Shown here: one piece after another, positions 496 through 27,225 of the stretch
Layout of the letters: every line of letters starts with the position of its first letter
Position numbering within the stretch: position 1 is the stretch's first letter
Source: Ilumatobacteraceae bacterium
GTDB lineage: Bacteria > Actinomycetota > Acidimicrobiia > Acidimicrobiales > Ilumatobacteraceae
Length of the DNA stretch: 45,088 bases
Direction of reading: 5' to 3'
Assembly: GCA_023262255.1 (NCBI GenBank)
Contig: JALRBT010000005.1
Coordinates: forward strand, 1 to 45,088
Notes under the pieces: model-generated
What the model saw: the letters and a program-made list of their open reading frames with translations, nothing else
Told to the model about the DNA's origin: nothing
The model's database searches: none
Made by a program: the position numbers and the translations under genes

Positions 496-1698
496 TTAGA
501 GGTCGTTGAGCGAGCGCAGCGACACAATGGTTGCGGCAGTGAGCGCAAAGAGGCCGAGCACCAGACTGAACGTGGCTCGTAGTCCGAACGCTTCGATACC
601 CCAACCCACGAGCAATTGCCCGATCGGTGGCGCCGCATAGACGAGCGACATCTGCAACCCGTAGATACGGCCTTGAAGTGCGGGGTCTATTCGCTTTTGA
701 ACCACCGTGTTCCACAGGGGGTTGAAGGGCCCCCACGCCAGACCCGTGATGAGCGCGAGCAACGCGAAGATCGAGGTACCCGGGAGAAACCCCATGGGCA
801 ACAGGGCAGTTGTGGAGAGCAGAACCACCAGTCGTAGCAATACCGAGGTGCGGACTCGAGCCGCCAAACGTCCGTAGGCGAACGCTCCGATCACCACACC
901 GAGTGCGACTGCGGACATCACCACGCCGAGACCAACCGCATTGTCGAGTGATTCGAAATGGGTCGGCCAGATGACGGTATCGATCGGCATGTAGAGGCCG
1001 CTCATCACCGTGAGGCCGAGCGTGAAGGTGAGTAGCGCCTTGTCGGAACGCAAAATGGCGAATCCGCCATGTAGTGCCCGCCAGAACGGCTCCGCAGTTT
1101 CGTGATGCTCGCTGCGATGTTCACGAATCCGCATGGAGCGCACCGCGAACGCCGCAACCAGGAACAGTGCGCTCGTTGCGGCAAATGCCAGGGTCGGGCC
1201 CCCGAACTCGATGCACCACGCACCTGCCGCCGGCCCGATCATCCAGCCGATGGCAAAGAAACCTTCGTGGCGACCGTTTGCCTTTTCCACGTTCATACCG
1301 GCAGAGGTGGCCACGTTGGGGATGAGCGCCTTGCGTGCCGTGTAGCCCGCAGGATCGAACACTGCACCGAGTACCGCAAAGATTGCGATGAATGGGTAAT
1401 TGAGCTCGGTCACGAGTTCACCCACGACGAACAACAGCACCGACAGACACGACAGTAAGTCGGAGAGTGCCGAAACCGCCCGACGTCCAACCCTGTCGAT
1501 CAATCCGCCCACCACGGGCGAAACGAAGATGCCCGGCAGGCTCACCAACGCTGCGAGCAGTCCCGCTCGTGCCGGTGATCCGGTTCGCTCGAGCACCAAC
1601 CAGGGGACGGTGATCATCACGACCCCGTTGGAGATTCCGGACGAGAGGTTTGCAATTTGCAGTCGAGCGAACGCCGACCGCTGCAATACCTCGCTCAC
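496..1698 (-). CDS. MFS transporter
   Basis: A 400-residue integral membrane protein of the major facilitator superfamily, probably with 12 helices. The loop after the second helix reads GGLIDRVGRRAVS, the MFS motif A between helices 2 and 3, and the hydrophobic segments are arranged in two halves with a charged central loop near residues 190-205. The GTG start at 1698 overlaps the stop codon of the upstream LLM gene in a GTGA arrangement, so the two are probably translated together. The family resembles drug or small-molecule exporters, but the substrate cannot be determined here. Confidence 0.88.
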   Translation of the reverse strand: MSEVLQRSAFARLQIANLSSGISNGVVMITVPWLVLERTGSPARAGLLAALVSLPGIFVSPVVGGLIDRVGRRAVSALSDLLSCLSVLLFVVGELVTELNYPFIAIFAVLGAVFDPAGYTARKALIPNVATSAGMNVEKANGRHEGFFAIGWMIGPAAGAWCIEFGGPTLAFAATSALFLVAAFAVRSMRIREHRSEHHETAEPFWRALHGGFAILRSDKALLTFTLGLTVMSGLYMPIDTVIWPTHFESLDNAVGLGVVMSAVALGVVIGAFAYGRLAARVRTSVLLRLVVLLSTTALLPMGFLPGTSIFALLALITGLAWGPFNPLWNTVVQKRIDPALQGRIYGLQMSLVYAAPPIGQLLVGWGIEAFGLRATFSLVLGLFALTAATIVSLRSLNDL

Positions 1699-2447
1699 CG
1701 CGTAGAGGCTACGAACTTCTCCACTGCGCTGAGGTCATACGGGTTGCTCAACATCACGATCATGTGATCGGCGCCGGCGGCTGCATACTCGTCGACTTTT
1801 TCGAGCTCCCCGGGGGTTACCGCCACGGTGCGTTCGATGTCCTTGGGGTTGCGTCCGACCTTTGCACACCACTCGTTGAGGATGTCGTTCTTCTTCTTGA
1901 AGTTGTCTGGCGGACCGAATGTGTTGAGTTGGTCGGCATGCTGCGCCACGAGCCGCAACGTGACCTTCTCGCCGCTTCCACCGATCATGAGTGGAATCTT
2001 TCCGTTGACCGGACCGGGGTTGAGTTTGGCCATTCGCTCCTTGATGATCGGAAGTCCGGCCTCGAGGATCTTCAGGCGCCCCGGAGCCGTACCGAATTCG
2101 TAGCCGTATTCGGTGTAGTCGCGTTCGAACCATCCAGAACCGATGCCGAGGACGAAACGCCCGTTGCTGATGTGGTCGATGGTGCGGGCCATATCGGCCA
2201 GCAACTGGGGGTTTCGGTACGAGTAGCAGGTGACGAGTGCGCCGACCGTTGCGTGCTTGGTATCTGCGGCCATGGCGGCGAGCAGGGTGTAGCACTCGAA
2301 ATGTTCGGCGTCGGGGTCGCCGAACAGCGGGTAAAAGTGGTCCCAGGTCCACAAACTGTCGACGCCGATGTCGTCGGCACGCTTCCACGCATCGCGCATG
2401 GCTTGAACCGTCGTTGCCTGAGGTTGGATTTGGACGCCAATTTTCAT
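1695..2447 (-). CDS. LLM-class F420-dependent oxidoreductase
   Basis: A 250-residue luciferase-like flavin/F420 oxidoreductase with a TIM-barrel fold. It starts MKIGVQIQPQ, has the WTWDHF segment near residue 35 and the NGRFVLGIGSGW segment near residue 100 typical of actinobacterial F420-dependent LLM proteins, and ends with the AGADHMIVML strand. Such enzymes use reduced F420 to reduce or oxidise small organic molecules; the substrate is not visible. It is the first gene of a two-gene unit with the MFS exporter (GTGA overlap). The ATG lies 6 nt after a TAGGTT hexamer, which suggests a leaderless mRNA started from a promoter shared with the divergent ABC transporter. Confidence 0.9.
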   Translation of the reverse strand: MKIGVQIQPQATTVQAMRDAWKRADDIGVDSLWTWDHFYPLFGDPDAEHFECYTLLAAMAADTKHATVGALVTCYSYRNPQLLADMARTIDHISNGRFVLGIGSGWFERDYTEYGYEFGTAPGRLKILEAGLPIIKERMAKLNPGPVNGKIPLMIGGSGEKVTLRLVAQHADQLNTFGPPDNFKKKNDILNEWCAKVGRNPKDIERTVAVTPGELEKVDEYAAAGADHMIVMLSNPYDLSAVEKFVASTR

Positions 2448-2453
2448 GCCGCA

Positions 2454-2463
2454 AACCTAGCCT
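2454..2463. promoter_or_regulatory. Mirror-symmetric bidirectional leaderless promoter (-10/-10)
   Basis: The 22 bp between the start codons at 2447 (minus) and 2470 (plus) contain a minus-strand TAGGTT (2454-2459) and a plus-strand TAGCCT (2458-2463). The two hexamers share the central TA, and each is separated from its start codon by exactly 6 nt. Both match the TANNNT form of actinobacterial -10 elements at leaderless spacing. No Shine-Dalgarno can fit for both genes. The assignment rests on geometry, without transcript data. Confidence 0.6.
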
Positions 2464-2469
2464 GAGCAG

Positions 2470-3384
2470 GTGCCGCAATCACCAGCGCTCGCCGTACGCA
2501 ACGTGACCAAGCGATTCGGCGACTTCGTTGCGGTGAACGACCTCTCCCTCGATGTTCAACCCGGAACCTGTCTGGGTCTACTCGGCCCGAACGGTGCGGG
2601 AAAGACGACCTTGATGCGAATGATCACGGGGCAAACCGGTTTGAACGGCGGGTCGATCTCGGTGCTCGATTTCGACATCGCTACGCAAAGTCGCGAGGCT
2701 CGGGCCGTCCTGGGTGTGTGTCCGCAGCAGGACAACATGGACGATCAACAGACCGCGCGCGAGAACCTCGCACTCTGGGCGGCGTTGTGTCGCGTGCCGC
2801 GTGCGCAACGCAAGTCGGCGATTGCAAAGGCATTGGCGACGGCACAACTCACGGAGCGTGCCGGCGAGCGAGTGACGAACCTCTCCGGCGGTATGCGTCG
2901 CCGGCTTCTACTCGGACGTGCGTTCATCAACTCGCCGAAGTTGGTCTTGCTTGATGAGCCGACGGTGGGTCTGGATCCGCAGGTGCGGAGCGACTTGTGG
3001 TTGATCATCGATGCCATGCGGCGAAGTGGCGTCACCGTAGTGATGAGTACCCACTACATCGAGGAGGCGGAACGTCTCGCCGACGACATTGCGATCGTGA
3101 ACCATGGTCGGGTGATTGCCCGTGGCACGCCGCACCAATTGCGCGAACGGTACGTTGGCGTCGAGGCGGTCGAGTACTTCGGACCGCCGGAGGTGCTCGA
3201 CGAGATCGCGTCTAAGGCAACGGATGCCGGCCTCAAATCGCGACGTGCTGGCCTGAGCATCTCGGTGCTCGGTGTGGAAAACACTTCGGTCGAGTTGTTG
3301 AACTCGTGGGGTCGATTGTCGCGACGGCCGACGAACCTCGAGGACGTCTTCGTGTTGCTGACCGGGGAGTCCCTCGATGGCTAG
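2470..3384 (+). CDS. ABC-2 exporter ATP-binding protein (DrrA/NodI type)
   Basis: A 304-residue cytoplasmic ATPase subunit of an ABC-2 exporter. Walker A GPNGAGKTT is at residues 39-47, the signature LSGGMRRR near residue 141, Walker B LVLLDEPTVGLD near residue 160 and the switch histidine in MSTHYIEEAERLADD. The roughly 80 residues after the ATPase core form the regulatory tail usual in DrrA/NodI proteins. It is followed, with an 8-bp overlap, by its membrane partner. Such pairs export drugs, lipids or polysaccharides; the cargo is not identifiable here. The GTG start at 2470 is supported by a -10-like hexamer 6 nt upstream. Confidence 0.93.
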   Translation: MPQSPALAVRNVTKRFGDFVAVNDLSLDVQPGTCLGLLGPNGAGKTTLMRMITGQTGLNGGSISVLDFDIATQSREARAVLGVCPQQDNMDDQQTARENLALWAALCRVPRAQRKSAIAKALATAQLTERAGERVTNLSGGMRRRLLLGRAFINSPKLVLLDEPTVGLDPQVRSDLWLIIDAMRRSGVTVVMSTHYIEEAERLADDIAIVNHGRVIARGTPHQLRERYVGVEAVEYFGPPEVLDEIASKATDAGLKSRRAGLSISVLGVENTSVELLNSWGRLSRRPTNLEDVFVLLTGESLDG

Positions 3385-11901: not shown

Positions 11902-11978
11902 GCTCCCGTAGCTCAGTTGGATAGAGCGACGGTTTCCTAAACCGCAGGTCGCAGGTTCGATTCCTGCCGGGAGCGCCA
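11902..11978 (+). tRNA. tRNA-Arg (anticodon CCT)
   Basis: A 77-nt cloverleaf with the CCA end encoded. The acceptor stem is GCTCCCG/CGGGAGC, the D stem GCTC/GAGC, the anticodon loop TTCCTAA (anticodon CCT, reading AGG) and the T arm GCAGG-TTCGATT-CCTGC. The anticodon stem has four pairs plus an A-C mismatch at 27-43. It lies alone between the DUF1330-like gene and the HAD gene. The 170 bp upstream hold no recognisable gene. Confidence 0.95.
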
Positions 11979-22675: not shown

Positions 22676-23908
22676 ATGGCCGTCTGGACCGCAGAGGATG
22701 GTGGACCGCGTCGTCAACAGTGGTTGGCCGGAGCGGAACTGAGCATCGGCGAGACGGAGCGCCTACAGGTGGCGAGCCGCACGATGATGGTGGTCACGAT
22801 GGTGGTGCTTGCATCGCCGGAGGAAGTATTCGTGCTGTGCCACACGGGTGGCAATGACGCGGTGTCGTGGGTGGAGCAGGTGCATCCACGAACACTGGAG
22901 ACCCTTGCATCGAGTGAGAAACTCGCCGGTGGTCGTGCGTGGCCCGGTGGCATCGCAGTGCACCCGAACGGTGATCTGTACGTGGTGTTCGGAAACCATG
23001 CGCACCGCCTGAACCGCCGTTTGGAGGTAGTAGCGTCGTGCGAACTGCCACGGTTGCGCCCGTACAACAGTTTCGTGCTGTTGGCCGACGGCAACGTGGT
23101 CACCAAGGATTTCTCGGGTTCGCGACCCGGCAACGAGTTGACGGAACCGTTCGACGCCACCGAACTGGTGGTGCTCGAGCCGGAGGAGTTGGGGGTCGTG
23201 GCCTCGCTCCAACTACCCGAGGCGTCGATCGCCCGACTTTCGGCCGACGACAACGACGTGTACGTGGTGGGAACGTCCGCACTCTGGCGTGCACGCTGGG
23301 ATAGTTCTTCGCTGACCCTCGACGATTTTTCTGCGAAATATCGCCTCATGGAGGGGCAGACCTTCGGCTGGGACACCGTGATTGCCGATGGCTGTGCGTG
23401 GTTCTTGGACAACGGGGAGTCCACCCACAAGTTCTCCGGGACCCTTCGTGGAGTTGGTACCGCAACCGCGCCGTTGCACCTTGTTCGCGTGTGGCTGGAT
23501 TCCGGGCTCGTCCAGCTCACCGAGATTTGCGGGTTGCCAGGTGGTGTCGTGGCGAATCCGCCGCTCGTCGACACGGAACGCAAGGTGGTGGTTGGTTTCG
23601 ATAGTGGCAACGGGGTGCTTGCAGGATTCCACTACGACTCCGAGACGCTCGAGCCGCTGTGGTCGTACGAGCAGAATCATGGTTCGCACATGCTGCTCTA
23701 CCCGGCATCGGGTGAGTTCGTGAGTGCACACTACGACGCAGAGCGAGGCGTGGAGCAGGTGGTGGTTCGCGACGTGGTCACCGGACGAGAGAAGACGCGA
23801 GTCGATACCGGCTCGCCCATTCAGTCGGTGGTGTTCCCGGCGTGCGGGTCGCAACGCGACTTTTATTGGTGCAGCATGCTGTCGGTGAGTCGAATCAGCG
23901 TGGTGTGA
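22676..23908 (+). CDS. Hypothetical protein, probable beta-propeller, 410 aa
   Basis: I cannot assign this 410-residue protein to a named family. It has no signal peptide or membrane helix. Its length and the regular alternation of short strands (EEVFVLCHTGG, GGIAVHPNGDLYVVFGNHAHRLNR, YNSFVLLADGNVVTKDFSG, GEFVSAHYDAERGVEQVVVRDV) suggest a beta-propeller of the SMP-30/NHL/PQQ kind. Segments such as GNELTEPFDATELVVLEPEEL resemble lactonase-like or arylesterase-like proteins, but no metal-binding set can be named. The ATG is 6 nt after a -10-like hexamer. Its stop is 1 nt from the stop of the convergent DinB-like gene. Confidence 0.8.
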   Translation: MAVWTAEDGGPRRQQWLAGAELSIGETERLQVASRTMMVVTMVVLASPEEVFVLCHTGGNDAVSWVEQVHPRTLETLASSEKLAGGRAWPGGIAVHPNGDLYVVFGNHAHRLNRRLEVVASCELPRLRPYNSFVLLADGNVVTKDFSGSRPGNELTEPFDATELVVLEPEELGVVASLQLPEASIARLSADDNDVYVVGTSALWRARWDSSSLTLDDFSAKYRLMEGQTFGWDTVIADGCAWFLDNGESTHKFSGTLRGVGTATAPLHLVRVWLDSGLVQLTEICGLPGGVVANPPLVDTERKVVVGFDSGNGVLAGFHYDSETLEPLWSYEQNHGSHMLLYPASGEFVSAHYDAERGVEQVVVRDVVTGREKTRVDTGSPIQSVVFPACGSQRDFYWCSMLSVSRISVV

Positions 23909-23909
23909 C

Positions 23910-24476
23910 CTAAGAGGTCATGCCGCGCAGGCCCGTGAGGTGCCGCGCGTATTCGATCTCGCCCATGTGCCGCAACGCGTGTTGGTAGATCCAACATTCA
24001 AGACCATCGAGCACCGTGATGCCCGCGTCACCACCGACACGTGCAGAGAACGTGGACGCGACCTGCGGTGGGTACGGCTTTGGGAAGATGACACGTGAGA
24101 GATCATTGGGATTCAACTCCGCGGTCCAGGTCTCCACGCGGGCGAACACCTGCCCCATGTAATCCTTGAATGCGTCGTAGTCGCCGATTTGCTGGTGCAC
24201 CATCTCCTCGACGGTGCGATGTTTGCCGTGGTCACCGATCTTCGGGAGTACTCGCGCAGCCCAGTCGTCGTTCCACAGCGGTGGATTTCCGTTCAGCAAC
24301 ATGAGTGATGCGTCGATCATGTTCACGATGTGGAACAAACTGAACGCGATTGGTAGCACGTCCTCGCGCTCCTTGTAATTGACGTGGTGCAGGTCCATCG
24401 TTGCGGTGGCATCCTCATACAGCGAAAAGATGGCCCGCATGCGACGGCGGAGCGAGTCGAGCACCAGATCGGACAT
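23910..24476 (-). CDS. DinB-like four-helix protein
   Basis: A 188-residue helical protein resembling the DinB/YfiT-like metal-binding superfamily, whose members include thiol-dependent transferases and hydrolases. The helix with LPIAFSLFHIVNMIDASLML and the C-terminal CWIYQHALRHMGEIEYARHLTGLRG provide histidines at positions compatible with the usual metal site, though the pattern is not exact. The frame opens at 24506, but ATG 24476 gives a normal N-terminus and lies 6 nt after TACGCT. It is divergent, with a 22-bp spacer, from a metallo-beta-lactamase-fold hydrolase. No specific reaction can be assigned. Confidence 0.75.
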   Translation of the reverse strand: MSDLVLDSLRRRMRAIFSLYEDATATMDLHHVNYKEREDVLPIAFSLFHIVNMIDASLMLLNGNPPLWNDDWAARVLPKIGDHGKHRTVEEMVHQQIGDYDAFKDYMGQVFARVETWTAELNPNDLSRVIFPKPYPPQVASTFSARVGGDAGITVLDGLECWIYQHALRHMGEIEYARHLTGLRGMTS

Positions 24477-24482
24477 GTCGCG

Positions 24483-24492
24483 AGCGTACACT
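24483..24492. promoter_or_regulatory. Second mirror-symmetric bidirectional leaderless promoter
   Basis: The 22-bp spacer between ATG 24476 (minus) and GTG 24499 (plus) contains TACGCT on the minus strand (24483-24488) and TACACT on the plus strand (24487-24492). They share the central TA, and exactly 6 nt separate each from its start codon. The layout is identical to that at 2448-2469, with different flanking bases. Confidence 0.62.
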
Positions 24493-24498
24493 GACCAC

Positions 24499-25434
<936 letters not shown>

Positions 25435-25438
25435 CGCG

Positions 25439-26197
25439 CTACTGGTGATCGGGAAGGATCACCGAACGACCATCCGTGGTGGCGGTAACCCGGATGTTCT
25501 GGTGGTACACGTCCGAGAGCAGGGCATCGGTGAGAACCGAACGCGGGTCACCACTGGCGACGCAGCGTCCCTGATGCAACATCACCACCTTGGTGGCGAA
25601 TCGCATCGCAACGTTGAGGTCGTGCAACACGGCGATCACACCGCGACCCTCGTAGACGAGTGATCGGGCGATGGCGAGGAATCGCTCCTGCTGGCCGATG
25701 TCGAGAACGGCGGTTGGCTCGTCGAGCAACAACAACGGGGTGTCCTGGGCAAGGACGCGTGCCATCGAAACGCGTGCCTGCTCGCCCACGGAGAGGGTTT
25801 GGTACGTGCGGCCCGCCAACGAGGCAACCTCCATTCGTTGCAGGGCGGCGGCGATTCGTTCGTCGTCGTTGGCGTCGAGCCACGGGCTGCGACCCATCGC
25901 CACGATCTCCCGAACGGTGAACGGAAACGAAATCGCAATTTGTTGCGGGAGGACGGCACGAACACGCGCAAGTTCGCGCGGTGCGAACGAGGTTACGTCG
26001 CGACCGTTGATCGAAACCGAGCCGCCCGACAGCGGGAAGTCACCTGCAATCGCCCCGAGCAGCGTCGACTTACCTGCTCCATTCGGGCCGAGTACCGCCA
26101 GCAACTCACCTGACTGCAGGCTTAGCGACACGTCGTTGAGCAACGTGGAACCGCTGCGTTCCACCATCACGTGGGATGCGACGAGCGAAGAACTCAT
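25439..26197 (-). CDS. hmuV: Heme ABC transporter ATP-binding protein
   Basis: A 252-residue ATPase driving import of heme or another iron chelate. Walker A is LGPNGAGKSTLLGA near residue 35, the Q-loop VLPQQIAISF follows, the signature LSVGEQARVSMARVLA is near residue 131 and Walker B is LLLLDEPTAVLD, with HDLN as switch. The size and the PQQ segment fit HmuV-type subunits. ATG 26197 overlaps the hmuU stop as ATGA and was preferred to an in-frame ATG at 26203; the frame runs further upstream but only as antisense of hmuU. It is the last gene of hmuT-hmuU-hmuV. Confidence 0.9.
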   Translation of the reverse strand: MSSSLVASHVMVERSGSTLLNDVSLSLQSGELLAVLGPNGAGKSTLLGAIAGDFPLSGGSVSINGRDVTSFAPRELARVRAVLPQQIAISFPFTVREIVAMGRSPWLDANDDERIAAALQRMEVASLAGRTYQTLSVGEQARVSMARVLAQDTPLLLLDEPTAVLDIGQQERFLAIARSLVYEGRGVIAVLHDLNVAMRFATKVVMLHQGRCVASGDPRSVLTDALLSDVYHQNIRVTATTDGRSVILPDHQ

Positions 26198-27225
26198 GCC
26201 CATCCACCTTGACTGCGTCGGGTGCTGCGCAACAACAGAAGGAAGAACGGCGCACCGATGAGCGCCGTGACGACACCCAGGGGAAGCTCTGCCGGCGACA
26301 AGAGGGTTCGTGCGGCGAGGTCCGCCAGGAGCGTCACGCTGGCGCCGAGGAGAGCCGCCGTCCACAGCAGGTGTCGGTGACGCGGCCCAAGGACGATACG
26401 CATGATGTGCGGAACGAGCAAACCAACGAAGGCGATCATGCCCGTTGCGGCCACTGCACTGGACGCGAGCAATCCAACGACCGCAATGGCCTGAAGGCGG
26501 ACCGGTTCCACTCGCACGCCGAGGTGCGTGGCGGGACGATCGCCGAGTGCGAGCGTGTCGAGCACCCTGGCGAACTTTGCGCTCATCGCCATTCCGAGCA
26601 ACGCGAGTGGCACCACGACACCCACCGCCTTCCACGTCGCCAACCCGAGCGTTCCGAGACTCCAGAACGTGACCGATCGAATTTCGTCATCGTCGGCGAC
26701 GAACACCGCAAAGCCGATGACCGCACCGGCAAAGGCGTTGATCGCAATGCCGGTGAGGATCAACGTGACCACCTCGGTCTTGCCATCGGAACGCGACAAC
26801 ACGTAGACGAGGGCAGTGGAGAGTGTGCCCCCGAGAAACGCGGCGAATTGGACACCGAGCGGCAACTGATTAAGGCCGACGATGATGGCAATCACCGCAC
26901 CGACTGCGGCGCCCGCCGATACTCCGACGGTCGCCGGTTCGGCCAGGGGATTGCGGAAGATGCCCTGCATGATGACGCCTGCGACGGCCAAACTTGCGCC
27001 CACCAGGATTGCCAGCACGATTCGGGGGAGGCGAACTTGCCAGAACACGTTGTGCGCCACGGCCTCTGCCGTATCGCGACTCGGTCCATCACCGATGATG
27101 CCGAACAAGTCCGACAAGGAAATCCGAAAGGCGCCGGTTGCAAGTGACAGCAGAGTGGTGACGCTGAGCAACGCAACGAGAAACACGGCCACGGCGGGAA
27201 GGCTGGTTCGTCGGGCGATGGTCAT
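26194..27225 (-). CDS. hmuU: FecCD-family permease, probable heme importer
   Basis: A 343-residue permease of the FecCD/BtuC family, with about ten helices. Characteristic stretches are RLPRIVLAILVGASLAVAGVIMQGIFRNPLAEPATVGVSAGAAVGA near residues 70-110, and the C-terminal GMIAFVGLLVPHIMRIVLGPRHR, which contacts the ATPase. It forms a homodimeric channel that takes substrate from HmuT. Its ATG overlaps the hmuT stop and its stop overlaps the hmuV start, both as ATGA, which indicates translational coupling of all three. The assignment to heme instead of siderophore or B12 rests mainly on HmuT. Confidence 0.92.
   Translation of the reverse strand: MTIARRTSLPAVAVFLVALLSVTTLLSLATGAFRISLSDLFGIIGDGPSRDTAEAVAHNVFWQVRLPRIVLAILVGASLAVAGVIMQGIFRNPLAEPATVGVSAGAAVGAVIAIIVGLNQLPLGVQFAAFLGGTLSTALVYVLSRSDGKTEVVTLILTGIAINAFAGAVIGFAVFVADDDEIRSVTFWSLGTLGLATWKAVGVVVPLALLGMAMSAKFARVLDTLALGDRPATHLGVRVEPVRLQAIAVVGLLASSAVAATGMIAFVGLLVPHIMRIVLGPRHRHLLWTAALLGASVTLLADLAARTLLSPAELPLGVVTALIGAPFFLLLLRSTRRSQGGWA

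Follow-up and report, generated by a model that had tools for sequence, protein, structure and literature searches.

A 22-bp spacer with overlapping -10 elements as a probable bidirectional promoter of predicted leaderless DinB-family and metallo-hydrolase genes in Ilumatobacteraceae

Bidirectional promoters with symmetrical -10 elements were reportedly described by Warman et al. in 2021. Passages of Warman et al. (2026; PMC12825309) give common bidirectional classes in which the divergent transcription start sites (TSSs) lie 18, 10 and 23 bp apart, and place the 23-bp class, behind the 18-bp one, among the common ones. In such promoters (PMC12825309; Middlemiss et al., 2023, PMC10268837) the divergent starts flank a shared -10 element, and the locus described here is like them in this respect. 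It differs from them in that its TSS distance of 23 bp is predicted from geometry alone, in that both RNAs are predicted to be leaderless mRNAs of conserved genes, and in that the core fills the entire intergenic space.

Leaderless genes of the TA-led type, described in Actinobacteria (PMC3160421) and in mycobacteria (PMC3898074, PMC4633059), carry TANNNT about 12 bp before ATG or GTG, with neither a Shine-Dalgarno word nor a -35 consensus. The genes studied here resemble them in each of these features, but two of them share one element back to back. The adjacent divergent genes prpD and Rv1129c of M. tuberculosis are also alike, both being leaderless (PMC3898074), and the figure legend in that paper calls closely juxtaposed divergent promoters common; it does not mention that the two promoters have -10 bases in common. 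In passages on the EcoRV and CfrBI restriction-modification systems (PMC5333194), divergent overlapping core promoters likewise couple two genes; these systems differ in having a control protein, and the EcoRV C transcript is described there as not leaderless. Our literature search found no title or passage on a double-leaderless layout with a shared TA, which is not proof of its absence.

Anatomy of the spacer and the genes beside it

In the window, by which we mean the whole 45,088-nt stretch of DNA that was analysed, positions 24477-24498 form a 22-bp intergenic spacer that reads GTCGCG AGCGTACACT GACCAC and lies between CAT at 24474-24476 and the GTG that begins at 24499. Its 10-bp core (24483-24492) holds two predicted -10 elements on opposite strands, TACACT for the metallo-hydrolase gene (24487-24492, plus strand) and TACGCT for the DinB gene (24488-24483, minus strand), which overlap at the TA of 24487-24488. 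The gap from hexamer to start codon is 6 nt for both, and the 22-bp spacing therefore follows from two 6-nt gaps and the shared 10-bp core (6+10+6); the full layout, CAT-6-AGCGTACACT-6-GTG, spans 24474-24501. The earlier note had described the hexamers as sharing a central TA, each 6 nt before its start, and had pointed to an identical 6-10-6 geometry at 2448-2469. The letters confirm both descriptions, and the two spacers agree exactly in layout. The first T of the hexamer is at -12 on both sides, the start codons are ATG and GTG, and the spacer contains no Shine-Dalgarno word.

The minus-strand gene (23910-24476) encodes a DinB_2 family protein of 188 aa (Pfam PF12867, 2.6e-05, 25.1 bits against a cutoff of 24.8), which matches the mycothiol transferase model NCBIfam NF047843 weakly (32 bits, below the cutoff of 170). 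The plus-strand gene (24499-25434) encodes an MBL-fold metallo-hydrolase of 311 aa (Pfam PF00753, 6.1e-29); a search of solved structures with this protein returned MBL-fold relatives, which have no bearing on the promoter, and the hydrolase of G003, a close relative in the same genus, shows 98% identity. We considered a functional link via thiol chemistry, with DinB_2 as a mycothiol transferase and the MBL protein as a glyoxalase II, and do not claim it because the model scores were all below cutoff. The pair is flanked by gene X, which encodes an ABC ATP-binding protein (25439-26635, minus strand), and by gene Y, the convergent neighbour of DinB (22676-23908, plus strand), which has no Pfam or NCBIfam match. 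An Rfam search of the window returned nothing at the promoter; its sole match at the gathering threshold was a tRNA gene at 11902-11975.

The leaderless -10 signal and the proposed promoter

In G003, TANNNT at a gap of 6 nt precedes 10.3% of 446 first genes (0.91-Mb sample), and at other gaps (0-5 and 14-24) it mostly precedes 0-0.4% of them. In G023, a member of the same family, it stands at gap 6 before 10.8% of 250 first genes. Of the genes called operon-internal, 6.1% in G003 (374 genes) and 1.3% in G023 (79 genes) carry it as well; under these gene calls, first genes are thus not its only carriers. In a larger G003 sample of 1263 genes, TANNNT preceded 221 at gaps 6-9 and 16 at gaps 16-19. 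Among the 96 G003 genes with TANNNT at gap 6, 69% have C at -1, no -35 signal was found, and a Shine-Dalgarno-like word occurs in 0 of 96, which is weak evidence, as part of the region scanned for such a word is taken up by the fixed TANNNT. Nor was a TTGACA-like -35 word seen at a suitable distance in the window, and since there is neither a -35 match nor a -35 signal, the -10 element by itself would have to determine how strong the promoter is. With TANNNT required on both sides of divergent starts, G003 gave 10 candidate pairs at gap 6 and 0 at each of seven control gaps. The signal in both genomes matches that of leaderless actinobacterial genes as described in PMC3160421 and PMC3898074. 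Genes were called with our own codon-score caller, which is not a published tool and places starts noisily, and start-pair counts took all ATG or GTG starts within 150 nt of the called start. The larger G003 sample comprised 1,396,984 bases from a genome of about 1.7 Mb and included 13,594 N; a G000 sample held 90,248 readable bases, with 10 of its 20 pieces reading as N.

We interpret the spacer, with a probability of roughly 0.8, as a minimal bidirectional sigma-70-type promoter in which two TANNNT -10 elements share their TA and both mRNAs are leaderless. From the layout we infer that RNA polymerase with the housekeeping sigma factor would bind the core in either orientation, the opposite-strand elements sharing the TA at their upstream ends, and that transcription would start 7 nt past each hexamer, at the first base of the ATG (DinB) or the GTG (hydrolase). 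Neither mRNA would have a leader, and only one orientation would be occupied at a time.

Conservation with and without the hydrolase gene

The DinB gene is present in all 13 same-genus genomes examined (whole in 12, cut by a contig end in one), and in 8 of them the hydrolase gene lies beside it. In these eight genomes the spacer has the same length, with a gap of 6 nt on either side, none of the 10 core columns varies and TACACT is intact, so that the opposite-strand hexamers share bases in a fixed register in all eight orthologous promoters. The flanking 6-mers are less constant, with 3 of 6 columns invariant in each. TACGCT is invariant in all 13 genomes, with or without an adjacent hydrolase gene. 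The alignments support the view that the overlapping -10 elements are under purifying selection. The hydrolase start codon is GTG in three of the eight orthologues and ATG in five, both of which are permitted by the RTG rule for leaderless genes (PMC4633059).

The other five genomes have no hydrolase gene at the locus, and gene X is directly upstream of DinB in all five. A whole-genome search for the hydrolase (E <= 0.001) found none in four of these genomes, which are 78-94% complete as a group of five, and one match (1.5e-4) in the remaining genome, G008. The T at -7 is the critical base of a -10 element. In the five hydrolase-less genomes the DinB hexamer TACGCT is intact, and the -7T of the hydrolase side has become C in every case, giving TACACC in four and TACTCC in one. 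Each promoter half is kept together with its own gene, a sequence test that we added outside the published definition. In a tree of DinB and gene Y (15 rows, with G007 present twice and G012 represented by part of DinB alone), the five genomes fall in two groups among hydrolase-bearing ones, with support of 85-99 at the separating nodes and 60 at the deepest split. Two losses explain this pattern; one loss and a regain take equal steps and are less likely to restore the same spacer. Because all five carry the same C at -7, the decay of this base in the two groups may go back to one old, shared change.

Several observations concern the surroundings of the locus. The hydrolase gene lies between gene X and DinB in the eight genomes and is missing there in the five. 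Gene X is far more variable (60-94% identity, whole-length matches) than DinB (83-99%). In five public contigs titled Bifidobacterium breve (L206, L223, L236, L244 and L247), the DinB gene is close to the versions in MAGs of Ilumatobacteraceae; these contigs are apparently mislabelled MAGs.

The conservation of the core could reflect protein constraint if DinB began five codons earlier, at the GTG of 24491-24489 in the same frame, in which case the core would be coding. The stretch GTG TAC GCT CGC GAC ATG is indeed open and in frame, and a coding-score caller picked this GTG, 15 nt upstream, as the DinB start in the window. However, the upstream GTG is missing in G008 (GGAGTACGCT), while the ATG is retained in 13 of 13 genomes. 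The invariance of TACGCT in all 13 includes third codon positions, whereas just 1 of the 37 third positions in DinB codons 2-38 is invariant, and the columns that belong to the hydrolase -10 element only vary solely between genomes with and without the hydrolase. We judge the upstream start, from this codon pattern, to be very improbable.

A different explanation makes the core a near-palindromic operator (AGYGTACRCT) for a regulator, with the -10 match secondary. Across the eight genomes even the three N positions of each hexamer do not vary, which is more than a bare TANNNT requires and leaves room for a bound regulator. But the symmetry is broken in the five hydrolase-less genomes, where the DinB -10 element is kept, and the other two 22-bp pairs described below have different cores (AACCTAGCCT and ACGGTAGCGT) with the -10 letters in common. 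An operator is improbable on this evidence.

Recurrence of the 22-bp layout and its meaning

The second 6-10-6 spacer in the window (2448-2469) reads GCCGCA AACCTAGCCT GAGCAG, with its core at 2454-2463 and the full layout spanning 2445-2472. It separates the gene of an LLM-class F420-dependent oxidoreductase (1695-2447, minus strand; TIGR03856, 350 bits against a cutoff of 243.7) from that of an ABC transporter ATP-binding protein (2470-3384, plus strand; PF00005, 6.5e-33). This pair is kept in all six same-genus genomes read, and the core is identical in five; the G012 version is AAACTAGCCT, with a left gap of 7 nt. In five further genomes of the genus (G002, G004, G007, G009 and G010), the oxidoreductase was found without an ABC match at the cutoff of 1e-60. 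A third pair, with the spacer CAT-GACTTC-ACGGTAGCGT-TTCGCC-GTG, was found in G003; one of its genes encodes an alpha/beta hydrolase and the other a galactokinase-like protein (names assigned from sequence alone). Its spacing is 22 bp in all 11 genomes with both genes adjacent, as taken from match coordinates after correction of four matches beginning at query residue 2 or 3, the letters being read in G003 alone; of the two remaining genomes, one gave the kinase only and one part of the hydrolase only.

The pattern CAY-N6-ANNNTANNNT-N6-RTG occurs twice in the window, both times at called divergent starts, and in none of 20 dinucleotide shuffles. G003 contains 6 matches (shuffle mean 0.85, maximum 3 in 20), which comprise 3 divergent gene pairs, 2 one-sided cases and 1 without a called gene. 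Among 144 combinations of left and right gaps (1-12 each) in this genome, the 6/6 cell is the top one with 6 raw and 3 genic matches, and all remaining cells have at most 3 raw matches and at most 1 genic match. The scan with gaps of 6-7 nt against a shuffled control, which the earlier note had proposed, did give an excess in G003 (9 matches against a mean of 4.2, sd 2.0), but a weaker one, with a shuffle maximum of 8 and 3 of the 9 matches at divergent starts (5 are one-sided, 1 neither). The independent part of the G003 excess is one pair, because two of the three are orthologues of the window's own pairs.

Spacing was also compared among start pairs in G003. At distances of 5-80 bp, 10 divergent start pairs have TANNNT at gap 6 before each of the two starts, and in 3 of these the distance is exactly 22 bp. 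Among all candidate start pairs, this is 3 of 12 at 22 bp versus 7 of 787 at 24-120 bp (Fisher P = 0.0003), a value to be qualified because sharing the TA makes the second hexamer cheap. Under a null that includes the shared TA, at most about 0.43 pairs are expected, which gives P(>=3) = 0.009 when both discovery orthologues are included; for the third pair by itself, P(>=1) is 0.35. A recurrent design, as the earlier note suggested, is thus modestly supported: one further conserved pair exists in the genus, but without the two discovery pairs the excess is not significant. The suggestion that there could be many such pairs was not supported. Of the 186 divergent pairs called in G003, 3 fit the 6/6 layout. 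It has no match in 400 kb of G023, and at 80 DinB-homologue loci (569,552 bases, 99 called divergent pairs) it occurs nowhere but at the DinB/hydrolase locus, all 6 raw matches there being same-genus orthologues of that locus. The pattern is not widespread.

Other spacings were seen in G003. For the 18-bp TSS class, which corresponds to a 17-bp spacer between leaderless genes, there are 7 candidate start pairs and none with both hexamers. A further 22-bp pair (C38:54643) has one good hexamer, and the other lacks the -7T. At C51:4515-4526, divergent starts are 11 bp apart and each TANNNT would overlap the start codon of the partner (CATAACGTGACACTATG). When gaps of 6-7 nt are allowed for TANNNT at both starts, there are 16 divergent start pairs, and a 41-bp spacer recurs three times among them (C14:80896, C14:89934 and C37:11563). 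At this distance each -10 element sits about where the -35 element of the other promoter would be; the recurrence may be chance.

Whether the shared TA matters for regulation is a separate question from the anatomy. Steric exclusion at the shared core would be expected from work on E. coli bidirectional promoters, and the mutual exclusion or co-tuning of DinB and hydrolase proposed in the earlier note would follow from it on physical grounds. PMC12825309 reports that activating one direction of such promoters could repress the other, and also that the basal activity of the five E. coli promoters tested was too low for polymerase competition; we therefore do not regard a regulatory meaning as established here. 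There is about an even chance that two leaderless promoters merely abut in a compact genome and share the TA with no regulatory consequence, a reading that agrees with ours on anatomy and rivals it on meaning. The low basal activity in E. coli and the P value of 0.35 for recurrence past the discovery pairs speak for it. Against it, the three pairs retain their exact spacing in 8 of 8, 5 of 6 and 11 of 11 genomes, although the same would be seen if the cell simply required both promoters. A stronger version of the bidirectional-promoter reading would have, in this genus, a small class of functionally unrelated leaderless pairs that selection holds at exactly 22 bp, with the 10-bp core enforcing either/or transcription and neighbour gain or loss accompanied by a single-base on/off change at -7; we consider this possible but rather unlikely.

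We regard the DinB/hydrolase spacer as a neat, conserved example of a promoter type already known and not as a new system; it is real and ordinary in kind. It provides a clean natural test of a bidirectional promoter, in which the half of an absent neighbour lacks its -7T and the other half is perfect, and it shows how a distance of exactly 22 bp between divergent leaderless genes can arise. The 22-bp rule is usable for start-codon annotation in leaderless-rich actinobacteria.
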